A stretch of DNA of 49,642 nucleotides, taken from NCBI GenBank assembly GCA_947494695.1, contig CANLWB010000019.1:1-49642 (forward strand), given 5' to 3'. Both the position numbers and the translations under genes were made by a program. Under the pieces are notes generated by a model that saw only the letters and a program-made list of their open reading frames with translations, was not told the origin of the DNA and did no database searches. This stretch comes from an uncultured Flavobacteriaceae bacterium. GTDB lineage: Bacteria; Bacteroidota; Bacteroidia; Flavobacteriales; Flavobacteriaceae. Positions 116-19,393 of this stretch are shown here, piece by piece. How positions within the stretch are numbered: position 1 is the stretch's first letter; each line of letters begins with the position of its first letter.

Positions 116-382
116 GGAATTAAATAGAGCAATGTTATACGGATCAAGAGCAATTGTTGTGTTTAAGCAAAGATTTGCGTTAATCTAAAAAGAAAGAATT
201 CTACATTTTTAAGGATCAATACAAAAAATTGTGTTTGAGTAAAAAATAGCATTAAAGAGAAAGTTTTTTTGGATAGAAGCACTACAGATGGCCTTTCTTC
301 ATAAATGTCGTTAAATTTATTAATCTTCAAATAGGTTGAATGATAGTTTGTTATAAAATTTAACATTTTTTTATTGTTAAAA
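116..382. other. AT-rich stretch without a convincing gene
   Basis: Between the first terminator and the thiF promoter I see no RNA gene or supported CDS. A 67-codon minus-strand open frame at 163-366 has low-complexity hydrophobic content, no recognisable domain and no clear start signal, so it is not annotated. Confidence 0.5.
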
Positions 383-428
383 CTACTCTTTTGATTAATT
401 CAGGTATGCTTTTTTTGGTTTAAATTGG
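383..428 (+). promoter_or_regulatory. Candidate thiF promoter with a degenerate LuxR-type box
   Basis: CTACTCTTTTGATTAA (383-398) matches 8 of the 12 defined bases of the CTACAC-N4-GTGTAG palindrome seen at 2104 and 2833. TAAATTGG (421-428) is a 7/8 match to the Bacteroidota -7 motif TAnnTTTG. It starts exactly 38 bp after the box start, as at the two stronger promoters of this locus. The ATG at 447 lies 18 bp further on. The box alone would be unconvincing; the conserved spacing is what supports it. Confidence 0.4.
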
Positions 429-446
429 ACTATAAAAAAAATAACT

Positions 447-1211
447 ATGGAAACTCGATATGCCCGAAATAGGATTTATATTTCTACAGAAGAGCAAGAA
501 ATTATGAAAGACTTCCCTATTTTACTTGCTGGTGTGGGTATTGGGAGTGTTATAGCCGAATGTGCTTTACGTTTTGGTTTTGAAAATATTACTCTTATAG
601 ATGGAGATCAAGTCGAACGATCTAACCTAAATCGTCAGAACTATGAAGAAAACGATTGTGGAAGTAATAAGGTAGATGCTCTGGCCAAAAGGTTGTTATC
701 CATTAATAAAAATGCGAAAATAAAAAGATTTGATTTTTTTTTAACTGAAGAAAATATTGAAGAGCATATTAACGGACATAAAGTTGCAATAAATGCCCTG
801 GATTTTTCTTCACCAATTCCCATAATGTTTGACAGGATTTGCCAAAGACAAAGTATCCCTGTTTTACACCCTTATAATATTGGATGGGCCAGTCTTGTTA
901 CTATTATAACTCATGATGGGGTATCATTGGAGAGTATCTCAAAAGAAGGAGAGCGCTTTAATGAACTAAACGTCGTAAAATATGCCTCTAGTTATTTAGA
1001 GTTTTGGGGAGACCCTCAAAAATGGATCGATGATATCATTGAAAAATATATAGGAGAAAAAGAAGTTTTACCACCGCCTCAGTTATCAATTGGATGTTGG
1101 TCTGTTGCTGCCATGTGCACCCATTTGCTTTTTAATATAGCAACAGGTAAAAAAATTAAGAAATTCCCAAAGTTTTATTTGTCTAAAATTATTGATGACG
1201 ACTTTAACTAA
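447..1211 (+). CDS. ThiF/HesA/MoeB-family E1-like adenylyltransferase
   Basis: A 254-residue protein of the E1-like superfamily, whose members adenylate a carboxylate (usually the C-terminus of a ubiquitin-like protein or a peptide) using ATP. Visible motifs are the glycine-rich nucleotide loop GVGIGS (29-34), the acidic IDGD (51-54), SNLNRQ (59-64) with the family arginine, Lys75, and Asp119 in the NALD segment. The CxxC zinc pairs common in MoeB and ThiF are absent and no E1 catalytic cysteine is obvious, so it may only adenylate, or act as a stand-alone modifier as MccB-like enzymes do. No ubiquitin-like or ThiS/MoaD-like partner is encoded nearby. It is convergent with a LuxR regulator and lies close to an acyl-amino-acid synthase-like gene. 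The substrate is unknown; a role in making or modifying a signal molecule is inference. Confidence 0.85.
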   Translation: METRYARNRIYISTEEQEIMKDFPILLAGVGIGSVIAECALRFGFENITLIDGDQVERSNLNRQNYEENDCGSNKVDALAKRLLSINKNAKIKRFDFFLTEENIEEHINGHKVAINALDFSSPIPIMFDRICQRQSIPVLHPYNIGWASLVTIITHDGVSLESISKEGERFNELNVVKYASSYLEFWGDPQKWIDDIIEKYIGEKEVLPPPQLSIGCWSVAAMCTHLLFNIATGKKIKKFPKFYLSKIIDDDFN

Positions 1212-1229
1212 ACTAAAGGATAATAAGTA

Positions 1230-1991
1230 TTAAATTAATATGTTGTTATTGGTGGCATATGCTATGGCCTCAGAAATATTTGCGACGTCAAGCTTTGCAA
1301 ATAGCTTTCGTCTATGAAATTTAACCGTATCTGGAGATACAAAAATGGTCTCTGCTATCTCACCTACAGAATAACCTCTTATAGAAAATTGAAGAATTTC
1401 TTTTTCTCGATTGGTTAAGGTTATTTTATCCATCGTTTTCCAAAAATTACCTTGCAAATCATATTCAAATATTTTGTTATCGCCTTTTTTATAAATTTTA
1501 ATATTGCCAGAGCTTTTTGCAGGAGAAATAGAAATAATACAAATGGCTTTCCATATTTTTCCAGATTGAGTAAGGTATATGGGCGTTAGCTTTTGATTTA
1601 TAAGGATTACTTTTCCTTCAGAGTTTTTTAAATGAAAGTCGTAGCTAATGGTATGGAATATGCGTTGCTTAGGTGGGATTTTTTCGTAAAAATCAAATCC
1701 AATAGTGTTTATTTTTAAAAGTAATTCTAAATCCTCGGGAATAACATATTTGAAATAGAATGCATAGCCTAGTTTTTGGACCTCTTCCGCGGTATGCCCA
1801 CACAGAAACAGAGGGTTTTCAGAAACGTATTCGAAGCCCTTTTTTTCATAATCAATAACATAAATACTTTGATAAGTAGTTCTGGCGAATGCCTTAATTG
1901 CCTCCAAATAATAAAATGTTTGGTCTCTATCCTCTTTAGAAATACTATTAATGACATTTTTTGAAGAAAAAAAATCACTCTCATCTGCCAT
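1230..1991 (-). CDS. PAS-domain LuxR-family transcriptional regulator
   Basis: A 253-residue regulator. The C-terminal 63 residues (191-253) are a GerE/LuxR helix-turn-helix: LTNREKEIL, then GEIAETIFVSPDTVKFHRRKL, which is the family recognition-helix pattern. Residues about 25-155 look like a PAS-type sensor fold (SIYVIDYEKKGFEYVSENPLF, then YDFHLKNSEGKVILINQKLTPIY). There is no receiver domain, so activity is probably controlled by a ligand or partner at the PAS domain rather than by phosphorylation. It is transcribed away from the synthase-like gene at 2201, and the shared 209-bp intergenic region holds two 16-bp palindromes that are good candidates for its binding sites. Function and ligand are inferred from family and context. 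Confidence 0.85.
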   Translation of the reverse strand: MADESDFFSSKNVINSISKEDRDQTFYYLEAIKAFARTTYQSIYVIDYEKKGFEYVSENPLFLCGHTAEEVQKLGYAFYFKYVIPEDLELLLKINTIGFDFYEKIPPKQRIFHTISYDFHLKNSEGKVILINQKLTPIYLTQSGKIWKAICIISISPAKSSGNIKIYKKGDNKIFEYDLQGNFWKTMDKITLTNREKEILQFSIRGYSVGEIAETIFVSPDTVKFHRRKLFAKLDVANISEAIAYATNNNILI

Positions 1992-2016
1992 GGGTTCGAT
2001 TTTTAGGGGTTTTTCT

Positions 2017-2030
2017 ACTACTAAAGTAGT
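2017..2030. promoter_or_regulatory. Inverted repeat next to the luxR-type gene start
   Basis: ACTAC-TAAA-GTAGT lies 26 bp upstream of the regulator's start codon, in its 5' leader or promoter. The half-site differs from the CTACAC boxes further upstream. It could be an autoregulatory site or a small leader hairpin. Confidence 0.35.
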
Positions 2031-2103
2031 CTTTTTTTTTCATTTGCGCATTTCGAAAATTGGGGCGTTGGGAAAAATAATGATTTTTTAATAAGAATGA
2101 ATT

Positions 2104-2187
2104 CTACACCATCGTGTAGTTTTTTATCGATTAAATGCAAGCTAGCCTTTTGTGTAGCACATTCGAGTGGTTGCTTTGATAATTTTA
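2104..2187 (+). promoter_or_regulatory. Promoter with tandem 16-bp LuxR-type boxes before the acyl-synthase-like gene
   Basis: Box 1 is CTACACCATCGTGTAG (2104-2119), a perfect 6-bp inverted repeat with a 4-nt centre. Box 2 is CTAGCCTTTTGTGTAG (2142-2157), with a perfect right half and a 4/6 left half. The two starts are 38 bp apart. TAATTTTA (2180-2187) is a 7/8 match to TAnnTTTG and starts 38 bp after box 2, so box 2 is centred near -43 to -45, a typical activator position overlapping the -33 region. The gene's ATG is at 2201. Box 1 could also serve the divergent regulator gene. Confidence 0.65.
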
Positions 2188-2200
2188 ATTTAAAACTATT

Positions 2201-2815
2201 ATGATAATGAGCATATTAAACAACCTAATAAGAATAGGGCAAAGCGAACTATACAGCATGTCCAAATTTGTAGTGACAGAAAATTTTAAACACCACACGA
2301 ATGATACGTTACCAAAAAACTATAAAAAAGATATCGCGTTTATCTATATAGACGAGAAAAATAATTTAGCAAATTCTCAGATTTTTGCCGCTAAAACTGT
2401 CGAAGGAGAAATTGTTGGTACTATTAGGGTTTTAAAATGGGATTATATAAACCCATTACCGATTCAAAAAATATTTGGTATAAATCCATTATTATGTGTT
2501 AATGGAGATCTCATAAACGACATATGGCACATTGGTAGGTTTGCAATTAAAAAAGGAGTTAGTGATATTAATTTACTCAAAAAACTAATGGTTTCTGCAA
2601 TTAAGCCTATATGTAAGCATGAAAACAATATAGCTTTTGTTGAGTGCGATGCGAAGTTACTTCGTGTTATGACACTTATGGGGATTAAAACAGAAATTAT
2701 AGGAGAGTCCATTAATTATTTAGGATCCGAAACAATACCAGTGAGTATTTCTTATAGTGGATTAATTGATTTCTACGATTCGAATAAGTATTTAATAGAA
2801 ACAGATTTAAATTAA
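2201..2815 (+). CDS. GNAT-fold acyl-amino-acid / autoinducer synthase-like protein (LuxI/FeeM-like)
   Basis: A 204-residue soluble protein resembling the LuxI/FeeM branch of GNAT acyltransferases, which move an acyl chain from acyl-ACP or acyl-CoA to an amino acid or homoserine lactone. The supporting order of elements is: a core strand GEIVGTIRVLKW (about residue 68-79) after a variable N-terminus; DIWHIGRFAIKKG (about 107-119), matching the family E-x-x-R-f-a-V position; LLKKLMVSAIKPICKHENN, the helix after it; and near the C-terminus MGIKTEIIGESINYLGSETIPVSIS, the 'moderate similarity to AHL synthase' tail. The classical LuxI N-terminal R-F-W-E-D-F pattern is not evident, so an N-acyl amino acid synthase is more likely than a true AHL synthase. 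An alternative ATG is two codons in. The product is unknown. Confidence 0.6.
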   Translation: MIMSILNNLIRIGQSELYSMSKFVVTENFKHHTNDTLPKNYKKDIAFIYIDEKNNLANSQIFAAKTVEGEIVGTIRVLKWDYINPLPIQKIFGINPLLCVNGDLINDIWHIGRFAIKKGVSDINLLKKLMVSAIKPICKHENNIAFVECDAKLLRVMTLMGIKTEIIGESINYLGSETIPVSISYSGLIDFYDSNKYLIETDLN

Positions 2816-2832
2816 ATGACTAATACTTTGAA

Positions 2833-2915
2833 CTACACGAAAGTGTAAAGTTTAATTGTAAAAAACGAACTACCTTTTGGTGTAGCGTAATTAGAGCTAT
2901 ATCATATTAAATTTG
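2833..2915 (+). promoter_or_regulatory. Promoter with tandem LuxR-type boxes before the UpxY gene
   Basis: Box 3 CTACACGAAAGTGTAA (2833-2848) has 11 of 12 palindromic positions. Box 4 CTACCTTTTGGTGTAG (2870-2885) has a perfect right half. The starts are 37 bp apart. TAAATTTG (2908-2915) is a perfect TAnnTTTG -7 motif and starts 38 bp after box 4. This repeats the arrangement at 2104-2187 on the other side of the synthase-like gene. Confidence 0.65.
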
Positions 2916-3125
2916 AAAGTGTTAGAGTAAAATGATCATTGAAGTAAACGAATGTAATAATTAAAACTAAGTTTTAAAGTAGAATCTTCATTACAATTAA
3001 GCTTTAAAAGTACTTCTCTATAGCATTGTTCGTAAGGATTAAATCTTCATTATTGTTTTAAAAATGAGAAACTTATGTGACTTGGAGAGGTGGAGCCGTA
3101 TCAAATAATTAAAAATTTTTAAAAT
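2916..3125 (+). promoter_or_regulatory. Long 5' leader of the UpxY gene
   Basis: About 200 nt separate the predicted -7 motif from the ATG at 3126, with no open frame. It contains an imperfect direct repeat around AATCTTCATTA (2981 and 3043 regions) and ends with a purine-rich segment. UpxY proteins of Bacteroides act through the untranslated leader of their own operon, so this leader may be the recruitment site. That role is inferred. Confidence 0.4.
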
Positions 3126-3647
3126 ATGGTAAGAAATAAGGGGTGGTATGTACTTTATGTTAAGTCAAGGCATGAGGGCAAAGTCTACAGGTTATTAAAA
3201 GAGCAAGGAATAGAAGCCTTCTTGCCCATGACCACAGTAATCAGAAAATGGAGTGATAGAAAAAAGAAACTCAAGGTACCTTTGTTTAGTTCCTATGTTT
3301 TTGTAAAAATAAAAACAAGTATGGATTTTCATCTTGCCTGTAACGTTGCTGGAGCATGTGCATTTATAAAATTTGGAGTAGAATATGCTAAAGTGTCTGA
3401 TAAAGAAATGAATTGGATAAGAATTTTACTCAACACAGAAGGTGTTGAAGGTTTTAAAGTTATCGATAATGAGCCTACTGTAGGAGAAAAACATAAGATT
3501 GGTCATGGTCCATTACAAGGACTAGATTTTGAAGTTACCAGAGTAAATAGTAAAAGTGTAACTATGGTAAGGTTGGATTCTATAAAGCAAAATATAGCCG
3601 TTACCATTCCTAAGCAATTGTTGTATAAACATCCACTCACCGCCTAG
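3126..3647 (+). CDS. UpxY-type specialised NusG antiterminator
   Basis: A 173-residue NusG paralogue that would bind RNA polymerase and prevent early termination in a target operon. The N-terminal NGN domain spans about 5-110: GWYVLYVKSRHEGKVYRLL, then EAFLPMTTVIRKWSDRKKKLKVPLFSSYVFVKI. The C-terminal KOW-like part is about 120-170 (VGEKHKIGHGPLQGLDFEVTRV, ending in a basic tail). The length fits UpxY/RfaH-type proteins rather than housekeeping NusG in an operon with ribosomal genes. In Bacteroidota these usually sit first in a capsule, exopolysaccharide or other long operon. Here it is followed by a strong terminator and unrelated genes, so the target must lie elsewhere or be read through that terminator. 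Its promoter carries the same paired boxes as the synthase-like gene. Confidence 0.88.
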   Translation: MVRNKGWYVLYVKSRHEGKVYRLLKEQGIEAFLPMTTVIRKWSDRKKKLKVPLFSSYVFVKIKTSMDFHLACNVAGACAFIKFGVEYAKVSDKEMNWIRILLNTEGVEGFKVIDNEPTVGEKHKIGHGPLQGLDFEVTRVNSKSVTMVRLDSIKQNIAVTIPKQLLYKHPLTA

Positions 3648-4423: not shown

Positions 4424-4447
4424 TGATATCAATTTTAAAGTTAAAAA

Positions 4448-5238
4448 ATGAACAAAACAATTTTTATTACAGGAGCCTCTCAAGGACTGGGAAAAGCTAC
4501 GGCCAAATTATTTGCGATAAAAGGTTGGACGGTAATTGCGACCATGAGAAATCCTGAAAACGAAATGGAATTATCGCAATTCTCAAATATATACCTTTTG
4601 GAATTGGATATTAACAACGAAGAACAGATTTGTGAAATTGCCACAGAGGCAGAAAAGATAAGTCCAGTAGATATTTTGTTTAATATGCTTTCGCAGGAGC
4701 CTTAGAAGCTGCAACTAACGAACAATTACGGCGACTTATAAACACCAACCTCTTAGGGACAATACTTGTTACAAAAGCTTTTTTGCCTTATTTCAGGACA
4801 AGAAGAACAGGAACAATCATCACAACAACGTCGTCAACTGCCTATATTCCTTATCCGTTTATTGCTGTTTATGAAGCAGTAAAATCAGCATTAGAAACTT
4901 GGACTGCAGGAATGAGTTATGAGTTAGATAGAATGGGCTTAACCATTAAAACCATTGTTCCAGGTTATATGCGAACGGACTTTGGCAAAAACGGTGAATT
5001 CGCTGCACACGAAGATTACCAGGAGGACTTTAATAAGTACATTGAGAAACTAATGGCAGAAACGGCCTCGCTAGCCGACAGTCCTGACGATGTTGCAGCC
5101 ATTGTTTACGAGGCTGCAACAGATAATAAAAAACAACTTCATTACATGGCTGGAAATCATGCAAAGACAGAATACAGGTGGTTAAAGAAAGAGGGGCTTG
5201 AAGTTGTTATGAATGCACTGAAGAAAAGGTTCTTTTAA
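4448..5238 (+). pseudogene. Frameshifted short-chain dehydrogenase/reductase
   Basis: A classical SDR broken into two frames. The first part (4448-4705) has the Rossmann loop ITGASQGLGKATA and ends at VDILFN followed by an off-frame stop. The second frame, readable from about 4687 (AFAGALEAATNEQLRRLINTN), holds the serine strand (TIITTTSSTAY), the catalytic YEAVK (YxxxK) and the C-terminal region to 5238. The conserved NNAG motif expected right after LFN is missing. A loss of about 10 nt (one Asn-Ala-Gly segment plus one base) would explain both the missing motif and the shift; the exact size is inferred. The rest is well preserved, so the damage looks recent, or is a sequencing error. The substrate is unknown. 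Confidence 0.85.
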
Positions 5239-17662: not shown

Positions 17663-19306
17663 ATGGCTATAGTTATAAATATGCCGCGTTTAAGCGACAC
17701 CATGGAAGAAGGAACGGTCGCAGCTTGGTTAAAAAAAGTAGGAGATAAGGTAGAAGAAGGCGATATATTAGCTGAAATTGAAACCGATAAGGCGACTATG
17801 GAGTTCGAATCTTTTAACGAAGGAACTTTGTTGCATATTGGTGTTCAGGAAGGAGAAACTACGAAGGTAGATGAGTTATTAGCTATTATCGGAGAAGAAG
17901 GTGAAGATATCTCTGCTTTATTAAACGGAGATAGTGCTAGTACATCTGCCAATACAGAAGAAACTTCTGTTGAAAGTTCAAATGAAGAATCTGCAGGAGA
18001 TGAAGGCGATAATGGGTCAGTGAGCGAAGTCGAACTGCCAGAAGGCGTTATAGTCGTTACCATGCCTCGTTTAAGCGATACCATGGAAGAAGGTACCGTT
18101 GCAACATGGCTTAAGAACGTAGGAGATACCGTTGAAGAGGGTGATATATTAGCTGAAATTGAAACCGATAAAGCGACTATGGAATTTGAGTCGTTTCAAT
18201 CGGGGACATTACTACACGTAGGTTTACAAGAAGGTGAATCTGCAAAGGTAGACGCTTTATTAGCAATTATTGGTCCCGCCGGAACTGATGTGTCGGGGGT
18301 GGCAAGTAACTTTAAAGTAACATCTACCGCTGCAAAAACAGAAGAAACACCTAAACAGGAGGCTCCAAAAGCGGCGGCTCCGAAAAAGGAAGCTGCAGTT
18401 AATACGAGTACAGCAGAGAAATCTCATCGTGCAACTCCGGTAACATCAAATGGAGGAAGACTATTTGTATCGCCATTAGCTAAAAAGATTGCTGAAGAGA
18501 AAGGCATTAATTTAGCACAGGTACAAGGTTCTGGAGAAAACGGGCGTATTATTAAGTTCGATATTGAGAACTTTGTTCCAGCATCTTCTGGGGCATCTGT
18601 TGGTAAATTTGTCCCAACAGGTCAGGAAGATTTCGATGAGGTAGCAAACTCACAAATGCGTAAGGCTATTGCAAAGTCTTTAACAAAATCTAAGTTTTCG
18701 GCACCACATTATTATTTGGCTGTCGAGTTTGATATGGATAATGCTATCGGGTTCCGTAAGCAATTTAATTCAATTCCAGATACAAAAATATCGTTCAATG
18801 ATATCGTTGTGAAAGCTTGTGCTTTGGCTTTAAAACAGCACCCACAGGTAAATTCACAATGGTTTGACGATAAAATGCGTTTAAACAATCATGTGCATGT
18901 TGGTGTGGCAGTAGCAGTGCCAGACGGATTGGTAGTGCCTGTGGTTAAGTTTGCAAACGAGCAATCTTTACCACAAATTGGTGCAGCAGTTAAAGAACTT
19001 GCCGGAAAAGCAAAGAATAAGAAGTTAACACTGGAGGAAATGGAGGGGAGTACCTTTACAGTTTCTAATCTGGGGATGTTTGGTATAGACTATTTTACGT
19101 CTATTATAAACCAACCAAACTCTGCCATTTTATCTGTTGGAGCCATTGTGCAAAAACCAGTTGTTAAAGAGGGCGAAATTGTTGTTGGAAACACCATGAA
19201 ATTAACTCTGGCATGTGATCATAGAACCGTTGATGGTGCTACTGGAGCACAATTTTTACAAACTTTAAAAGGGTTTATTGAAAATCCGGTTACCATGCTG
19301 GTATAA
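17663..19306 (+). CDS. pdhC: Pyruvate dehydrogenase E2, dihydrolipoamide acetyltransferase
   Basis: A 547-residue core protein of the pyruvate dehydrogenase complex. It has two lipoyl domains with near-identical sequence; the lipoylated lysines are Lys43 and Lys170, each in EIETDKATMEFES. Acidic and Ala/Pro-rich linkers follow. A peripheral subunit-binding domain occupies about 267-305 (FVSPLAKKIAEEKGINLAQV). The catalytic domain ends with DHRTVDGATGAQFL, carrying the catalytic His and Asp. The duplication of the lipoyl domain is a normal variant. The last gene of the operon is followed by a terminator. Confidence 0.96.
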   Translation: MAIVINMPRLSDTMEEGTVAAWLKKVGDKVEEGDILAEIETDKATMEFESFNEGTLLHIGVQEGETTKVDELLAIIGEEGEDISALLNGDSASTSANTEETSVESSNEESAGDEGDNGSVSEVELPEGVIVVTMPRLSDTMEEGTVATWLKNVGDTVEEGDILAEIETDKATMEFESFQSGTLLHVGLQEGESAKVDALLAIIGPAGTDVSGVASNFKVTSTAAKTEETPKQEAPKAAAPKKEAAVNTSTAEKSHRATPVTSNGGRLFVSPLAKKIAEEKGINLAQVQGSGENGRIIKFDIENFVPASSGASVGKFVPTGQEDFDEVANSQMRKAIAKSLTKSKFSAPHYYLAVEFDMDNAIGFRKQFNSIPDTKISFNDIVVKACALALKQHPQVNSQWFDDKMRLNNHVHVGVAVAVPDGLVVPVVKFANEQSLPQIGAAVKELAGKAKNKKLTLEEMEGSTFTVSNLGMFGIDYFTSIINQPNSAILSVGAIVQKPVVKEGEIVVGNTMKLTLACDHRTVDGATGAQFLQTLKGFIENPVTMLV

Positions 19307-19322
19307 TCAATATGATAATACC

Positions 19323-19393
19323 ATTCTGAATCGTAGTTCAGAATCTCAAAATACTTTAAAAAACCTGTTTCATTGTTTTGAAATGGGTTTTTT
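19323..19393 (+). terminator. Terminator region after the E2 gene
   Basis: Two hairpins: ATTCTGAA/TTCAGAAT (19323-19344), and AAAAAACC (19358-19365) with GGTTTTTT (19386-19393) enclosing a second partly paired segment and ending in T residues. The second is the main terminator. Confidence 0.75.

Follow-up and report, generated by a model that had tools for sequence, protein, structure and literature searches.

A conserved ThiF, LuxR, and acyltransferase module with a shared predicted operator in Flavobacteriaceae, a candidate small-molecule signaling circuit

Do four neighboring genes near one end of a contig from an uncultured Flavobacteriaceae bacterium encode a small-molecule signaling system? 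The stretch analyzed, called the window below, is the complete contig CANLWB010000019.1 of assembly GCA_947494695.1 (49,642 nucleotides; contig C19 of genome G000 in our numbering), from a genome of 5.49 Mb. A preliminary description, made from the letters alone, had proposed that an E1-like enzyme, a LuxR regulator with a PAS sensor, a LuxI/FeeM-like acyltransferase, and an UpxY antiterminator work together in signaling. That interpretation is partly supported. The ThiF-like E1 enzyme, the LuxR regulator, and the GNAT-fold acyltransferase form a real, conserved, operator-linked module, the three genes sharing one predicted operator, but UpxY does not belong to its core. We consider it likely, though by no means certain, that the module works as a self-amplifying small-molecule circuit, resembling LuxI/LuxR in its working and built of other parts.

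The case for a unit comes from related genomes. Co-occurrence was scored in draws of 397 Flavobacteriaceae genomes (three draws, taken as identical since their handles agree), with thresholds that were set by us and are unequal among the families (E of 1e-8 or less for the acyltransferase, 1e-50 or less for ThiF, and 1e-80 or less for LuxR). The acyltransferase was found in 13 genomes, ThiF in 14 (the same 13 plus G257), and LuxR in 20 (the 13 plus seven others), and all 13 acyltransferase genomes also carry the related ThiF and LuxR. The Fisher P values for co-occurrence, 1.7e-23 and 9.7e-20, are too small, since the genomes are related. The exception in arrangement among the 13 is G066, which has only a distant acyltransferase-ThiF pair, with LuxR on another contig; the extra ThiF of G257, which has a box upstream, stops 37 bp short of where its contig breaks off. 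In a phylum-wide draw the acyltransferase was found in 12 of 395 genomes, one of these being a partial match with a stop. All four families had been expected to co-occur in related genomes; three do (13/13), whereas UpxY follows the acyltransferase in only 4 of 21 loci and was rejected as a fourth core member.

Gene order is conserved as well. Neighborhoods were examined at 24 loci (the window, L006 to L011, and L034 to L050), and LuxR lies beside the acyltransferase in 21 of them. The loci with both genes make up the 21-locus set used below; L042 and L043, which have no LuxR, and L050, where the acyltransferase match is incomplete and contains a stop, were kept out of the box counts. Sixteen of the 21 share the order of the window, ThiF(+), LuxR(-), acyltransferase(+). 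The other five (L011, L040, L045, L048, and L049) have no adjacent ThiF, and their genomes carry a triad-type ThiF elsewhere (E of 6.7e-113 or better, the other ThiF-family genes of those five genomes giving 3.1e-17 or weaker). ThiF lies about 9 to 12 kb from the acyltransferase in four of these five cases, and G657 has two triad-type ThiF copies on contigs other than that of the acyltransferase. Pairwise distances of the three proteins correlate over 16 loci (r of 0.79, 0.74, and 0.70), as kinship of the genomes alone would also bring about. The patchy distribution of the triad and its differing flanks suggest that it may have spread horizontally. Genes upstream of the triad are common to L006, from Aquimarina acroporae, and L008, from a genome of the same genus as the window, so that this genus may be Aquimarina.

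Some divergent arrangements were also seen. In L042 (5938-7414) and L043 (5968-7378) a distant acyltransferase (29% and 28% identical) is directly followed by ThiF (39% and 42%) on one strand, with no LuxR in the stretch examined; the L043 pair adjoins a TraM conjugation gene. L050 has a diverged LuxR and ThiF (5307 and 7050), its acyltransferase being present only as the partial match mentioned above. One TAA was flagged in one scan of the ThiF gene of G718; in L093 the frame is open over 252 amino acids.

All four open reading frames of the window were confirmed where they had been placed, the LuxR gene being divergent from the acyltransferase gene and convergent with the ThiF gene. The features are as follows.

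382..399, plus strand: single, degenerate copy of the operator box ahead of ThiF (score 9.6, under the threshold of 14)
421-428, plus strand: TAAATTGG after the ThiF-upstream box, at the +21 distance seen for good boxes
447..1211, plus strand: ThiF/E1-like adenylyltransferase, 254 amino acids (Pfam ThiF, 1.8e-31)
1230..1991, minus strand: PAS-LuxR transcription regulator, 253 amino acids, proposed signal receptor (GerE, 3.9e-16)
2103..2120, no strand: acyltransferase promoter, operator box 1 (distal) (score 18.1, the best of the window; in a double-box match)
2141..2158, no strand: operator box 2 (proximal) of the acyltransferase promoter, 38 bp from box 1 (score 17.7; double-box match)
2180..2187, plus strand: -7-like element TAATTTTA, 21 nucleotides after box 2 of the acyltransferase promoter
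2201..2815, plus strand: FeeM/LuxI-like GNAT acyltransferase, 204 amino acids, proposed signal synthase (FeeM, 6.1e-5); the ATG at 2207 agrees better with the homologs and may be the true start
2832..2849, no strand: UpxY promoter, operator box 1 (score 17.6; double-box match)
2869..2886, no strand: UpxY promoter, operator box 2, at a spacing of 37 bp from box 1 (score 16.1; double-box match)
2908..2915, plus strand: -7-like element TAAATTTG, 21 nucleotides after box 2 of the UpxY promoter
3126..3647, plus strand: UpxY/LoaP-type antiterminator, 173 amino acids, accessory output gene with a box pair upstream (133.2 bits, cut-off 100)

The preliminary description had seen one palindrome type at one spacing in three promoters. 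This was confirmed in part: the pair is present in the acyltransferase and UpxY promoters, but the ThiF promoter has one degenerate copy, so that the single spacing is seen in two promoters out of three. Indeed, the four best-scoring sites of the 49.6-kb window are the box pairs of those two promoters, and the ThiF box at 382 ranks seventh.

Across the 21 loci, an 18-bp palindrome, ACTACAC-n4-GTGTAGT, lies between LuxR and the acyltransferase without exception, so that each putative synthase promoter has a predicted palindromic operator of the sort that marks LuxI/LuxR systems. A second copy stands 37 to 39 bp away in 16 loci (exactly 38 in 14 of the 16), and the sequence TAnnTTT begins exactly 21 nucleotides past the proximal box in 20 of the 21 (in its strict form, TAnnTTTG, in 12). 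We take TAnnTTT to resemble the -7 element of Bacteroidota promoters; if it is one, the box is centered near -41, and the lux box lies near about -41/-42. A sigma-70 scan was uninformative (13 found versus 17.6 expected).

Training of the box matrix used the synthase promoters of these same loci, and sites outside that training, before the next gene and at ThiF, are the better test of the box. At a threshold of 14, a scan of 344,025 bases in the 21 loci returned 72 boxes. The synthase promoters hold 36 of them (21 loci), 26 lie at or just past the end of the synthase gene and before the next gene (14 loci, where they often overlap the final acyltransferase codons), nine are at ThiF (nine loci, one good box each), and one is before another gene, with none elsewhere. 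A strict double-box pattern gave 14 matches in 10 of 36 genomes, every one at the module; the 18 genomes that lack the module gave no match, and the reversed pattern had none. L050 carries another palindrome, AATACCC-n4-GGGTAAT, beside its LuxR and ThiF, and its LuxR is the most diverged (45%), which would be expected, in this one case, if LuxR and box change together. A remote box pair with 38-bp spacing occurs away from the module in G352 (L082:13687 and 13725).

What might the acyltransferase make? It had been described as LuxI/FeeM-like, and the FeeM family (PF21926) does match it (6.1e-5), but with 23.3 bits, under the 27-bit gathering cut-off; 16 of 23 homologs match FeeM weakly (E of 0.1 or less). 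The predicted structure (predicted local distance difference test score, pLDDT, 91.5) has TofI, LasI, FeeM, and MesI among its ten best PDB matches but does not single them out, sugar GNATs being matched as well. The modeled fold thus allows a LuxI/FeeM-like synthase and is no proof of one. A canonical LuxI elsewhere in the genome was also sought, with PF00765; the search was silent in 31 genomes and likewise in all 14 control genomes, and it therefore carries no information.

The ThiF protein is an E1-like enzyme lacking the zinc-binding CxxC pairs, as had been claimed: Pfam ThiF matches it, and its sequence contains no CxxC pair. Invariant residues in 19 homologs are G29, G31, G33, D52, D54, N60, N62, R63, Q64, K75, and D119. 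Solved orthologs 65% identical to the window protein (9EGB, 9EGC, and 9EGD; profile E of about 1e-134) were deposited without a functional name, which indicates that the enzyme has been studied by others, and no paper on these PDB codes was found in the literature searched. A defense role was considered and rejected: the protein matches CBASS-type Cap2 weakly, and among the best 25 of the 81 families matched by at least two of 94 flanking genes there was no defense family (padloc was not used). DUF4135 was matched by two flanking genes of that set.

A precedent for the enzyme pair comes from the acyl oxazolone pathways OxzAB, TyzACB, and TrzAS of other phyla, in which, according to the cited passages, an N-acyltransferase and a ThiF-like cyclase convert amino acids to acyl oxazolones (PMC12856293, PMC10404671), with an ATP-dependent ring closure (PMC12856293, PMC10404671, PMC12479983). 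The likeness to the present genes lies in a putative acyltransferase and a ThiF-like protein being encoded together (in 13/13 genomes, and adjacent in L042 and L043). The differences are a regulator and an operator that are built in here, a ThiF scoring 45 bits against the Rv1355c-type family, far under its cut-off of 476, and the flavin-dependent oxidase of those pathways, which was not found near the triad; in six module genomes searched, each of 25 nitroreductase places is on a different contig or over 100 kb from the module. By analogy with these pathways, ThiF probably activates and cyclizes an N-acyl amino acid. With no flavin oxidase near, the ring would stay saturated, or else a side chain would take part in closing it, giving a lactone or lactam.

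The regulator carries a LuxR-type helix-turn-helix (HTH) domain, GerE, as do all 22 homologs examined. The PAS sensor attributed to it is less clear-cut: Pfam finds no PAS domain in the window protein at an E of 1 or less and calls PAS_3 in 5 of the 22 homologs, but the model (pLDDT 87.2) is PAS-like, and PAS-LuxR proteins are among its best full-length matches, which begin with 3clo and continue with the quorum-sensing receptor VqmA (ranks 3 to 10). Whole-chain superposition is poor, with template modeling (TM) scores of 0.46 for 3clo and about 0.3 for VqmA. VqmA, the Vibrio receptor for DPO according to PDB entry titles, has the build of PAS plus LuxR-type HTH that is proposed for the window regulator and differs in sequence, at 15 to 18% identity. 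Of the LuxR genes not located near a synthase, seven were examined (L088 to L092, from genomes with a solo LuxR; L083, from G066; and L078), and a box scoring at least 17 lies near six of them, with none near L088; solo LuxR genomes outside these seven are G248, where the gene is interrupted, and G329. The L078 gene is a second PAS-LuxR of the window genome, 67% identical and with a box (L078:18389 and 18626-19387).

The UpxY gene itself is as had been described, and the window protein is one of two in its genome that pass the NF033644 cut-off. UpxY was also thought to couple the response to a long polysaccharide-type operon elsewhere. This stands in outline, but the box-linked genes encode an exporter and a nonribosomal peptide synthetase (NRPS) in place of polysaccharide functions. 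A single-box pattern has two remote sites in the window genome, on contigs C4 and C3; seven remote single-box places in all were picked by eye for examination. The C4 box (18.9) precedes genes for DUF6268, TolC, HlyD, a MacB-like permease, an ATPase, and an NRPS of at least 3,091 amino acids, of which the first 1,300 were scanned. Judging from sequence similarity, the C4 leader keeps an apparent UpxY remnant, matching the L006 UpxY in two frames (tblastn E of 5e-9 and 1e-6 in a 60-kb set) and the window UpxY at 2e-4 in the same set. The C3 box (17.0) lies between the second PAS-LuxR and divergent genes for a reductase, an ABC protein, and a glycosyltransferase; the 20-residue UpxY-like start in its leader is a weak match (E of 0.008). 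In G004 a box (26.5) precedes genes for an outer-membrane protein, a radical S-adenosylmethionine (SAM) maturase, and a C39 exporter. Box-linked genes thus include NRPS, exporters, and a radical-SAM maturase of ribosomally synthesized and posttranslationally modified peptides.

Genes next to the acyltransferase vary and, in the 14 loci mentioned, the next one is headed by the same box. UpxY is followed by an NRPS in L045 and, in L038, by a carbamoyltransferase, a cupin, and a large protein falling in one cluster with the L045 NRPS; L008 has TauD and a phosphopantetheinyl transferase after the acyltransferase. L035, L040, L048, and L049 have an operon with AraC, an NHLP-like peptide, a cyclic nucleotide monophosphate-binding protein, TolC, HlyD, and an exporter (grouped by BLAST clustering). 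The NHLP leader model matches all five peptides scanned and three pass its cut-off, and the exporter and HlyD pass theirs in L048, the locus scanned for them. On the side of LuxR, L040, L048, and L049 also carry NHLP-like peptide genes in tandem; ThiF lies beyond these, about 9 kb from the acyltransferase, in L040 and L048 and on the opposite side, about 11 kb away, in the L049 genome. The module is very likely regulatory and probably tied to specialized metabolism.

Two further features of the window lie outside the module. Positions 1-75 look by eye like the 3' part of a tRNA gene at the contig start, where ARAGORN finds no whole tRNA. A short-chain dehydrogenase gene at 4440-5238 is apparently interrupted: the frame at 4783-5238 covers the Pfam profile only from position 120 onward, and the usual start seems, by eye, to lie upstream in another frame.

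How would such a circuit operate? As the preliminary description proposed, the product would be an N-acyl amino acid that ThiF adenylates and LuxR senses. The acyltransferase would join an acyl chain to an amino acid, and the ThiF-like enzyme would adenylate the carboxylate of that product and close it into a ring, which may be a lactone, an oxazolone, or a lactam. PAS-LuxR would then bind the ring compound, dock on the paired 18-bp boxes, and turn on the synthase, the genes adjoining it, and, in most lineages, ThiF, with a response that would depend on cell density. In the window genome, UpxY might let RNA polymerase read through the box-linked exporter-NRPS genes on another contig. That the window UpxY would serve the C4 genes in trans is argued from LoaP, which promotes the expression of long antibiotic operons in the cited passages of PMC12691694. 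The window protein resembles LoaP/UpxY in passing the NCBIfam cut-off and differs in setting, with the intact gene at the signal locus and a probable remnant in the NRPS leader.

The parallel with LuxI/LuxR consists of a GNAT-fold synthase beside a LuxR-HTH regulator and a predicted palindromic operator upstream of the synthase promoter, in a position that would be comparable to that of the lux box. The differences are a synthase outside the LuxI family by Pfam, a receptor with a PAS-like in place of a LuxR ligand domain, ThiF as a constant companion, two boxes 38 bp apart, and a promoter element of what we take to be the Bacteroidota type. We put forward, tentatively and as a real possibility, a more specific proposal, namely, a new quorum-sensing class in Bacteroidota whose autoinducer would be an ATP-activated, E1-cyclized N-acyl amino acid, replacing the use of SAM by LuxI, and in which PAS-LuxR with paired boxes would drive antibiotic-like clusters.

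A number of observations weigh against a signaling circuit. On the protein side, the FeeM match is below its cut-off, Autoind_synth (PF00765) does not match the window acyltransferase and matches 1 of 23 homologs (E of 0.01), and the L042 and L043 acyltransferases match no Pfam family at an E of 0.01 or less. The best fold match is the acetyltransferase PaiA, and the search returned many ordinary acetyltransferases (515 matches at an E of 0.001 or less). The LuxR autoinducer-binding domain is absent from the 17 families matched by the 22 LuxR homologs (E of 0.1 or less), the superposition on VqmA has a root mean square deviation of 13 to 17, and 7 of the 20 LuxR genomes have no acyltransferase. 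No nitroreductase family was among the best 25 of the 81 flanking families. As to the boxes, the synthase-promoter scores (16.3 to 26.5 for the best sites, where 4,200 shuffled sequences averaged -1.0 and peaked at 17.6) are partly circular because the matrix was trained on those sites, and at least one shuffled sequence scored as high as the weakest of the observed sites (fraction 0.0005). Eight of 18 module genomes have no strict double-box match, the single-box pattern also matches genomes that lack the module, and 11 of 38 genomes match its reversed control. There is no box before the AraC gene in L035, L040, L048, and L049, so that the NHLP operon may be read from the acyltransferase promoter, and none before the next gene in L007. 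Finally, a terminator or unusual RNA fold was looked for in the NRPS leader and neither was found.

These points bear on what else the genes might do. The acyltransferase and ThiF could make an end-product lipid, an acyl amino acid or oxazolone, while PAS-LuxR answers another cue (redox, light, or a host compound) and the boxes mark an ordinary regulon. PAS domains often sense other cues, and the LuxR genomes without an acyltransferase fit this explanation. OxzAB, TyzACB, and TrzAS do make such lipids, with a role that the cited passages of PMC12856293 call unresolved while noting their likeness to signal molecules. However, LuxR is present in every acyltransferase genome, and boxes on the synthase and on neighbors that vary from genome to genome fit a signal better than an end product, and we regard this explanation as unlikely. 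The variable neighbors matter also for the idea that the acyltransferase and ThiF tailor adjacent peptide or NRPS products, for example by N-acylation or C-terminal activation, with LuxR as a pathway-specific activator. NRPS, NHLP peptides, and exporters are indeed among the neighbors, and the ThiF relatives MccB and PaaA act on peptides, but the triad stays constant while the neighbors change, and L007 is flanked by aromatic amino acid genes (by eye) and has none of the NRPS or peptide kind, which leaves tailoring improbable. Least probable of all, and indeed very doubtful, is that the acyltransferase uses SAM, as LuxI does, to produce an ordinary N-acyl homoserine lactone while ThiF does something else: LuxI-type structures are within the ten best fold matches, but the missing Autoind_synth match and the constant presence of ThiF (13/13 genomes, directly paired in L042 and L043) point away from it.

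A self-amplifying circuit, the reading we prefer, may have a bearing on older observations. We recognized no acyl-signal synthase and no circuit of this kind for Bacteroidota in the titles and abstracts of open-licence papers, preprints excluded. Acyl-homoserine lactones have been reported in Tenacibaculum, and we know of no synthase for them. Tenacibaculum agarivorans carries the triad (L007), which may bear on those reports.

If the proposal is true, it would open cell-cell signaling in Bacteroidota through a LuxI/LuxR-like circuit with enzymes of its own, and orphan receptors in other species would listen in on the signal. ThiF-acyltransferase pairs, whose oxazolone products are without a settled role in the cited passages of PMC12856293, would then gain a physiological function as well. 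Two enzymes, a receptor, and an operator are named, which makes the proposal directly testable, and the signal may wake antibiotic-like clusters.

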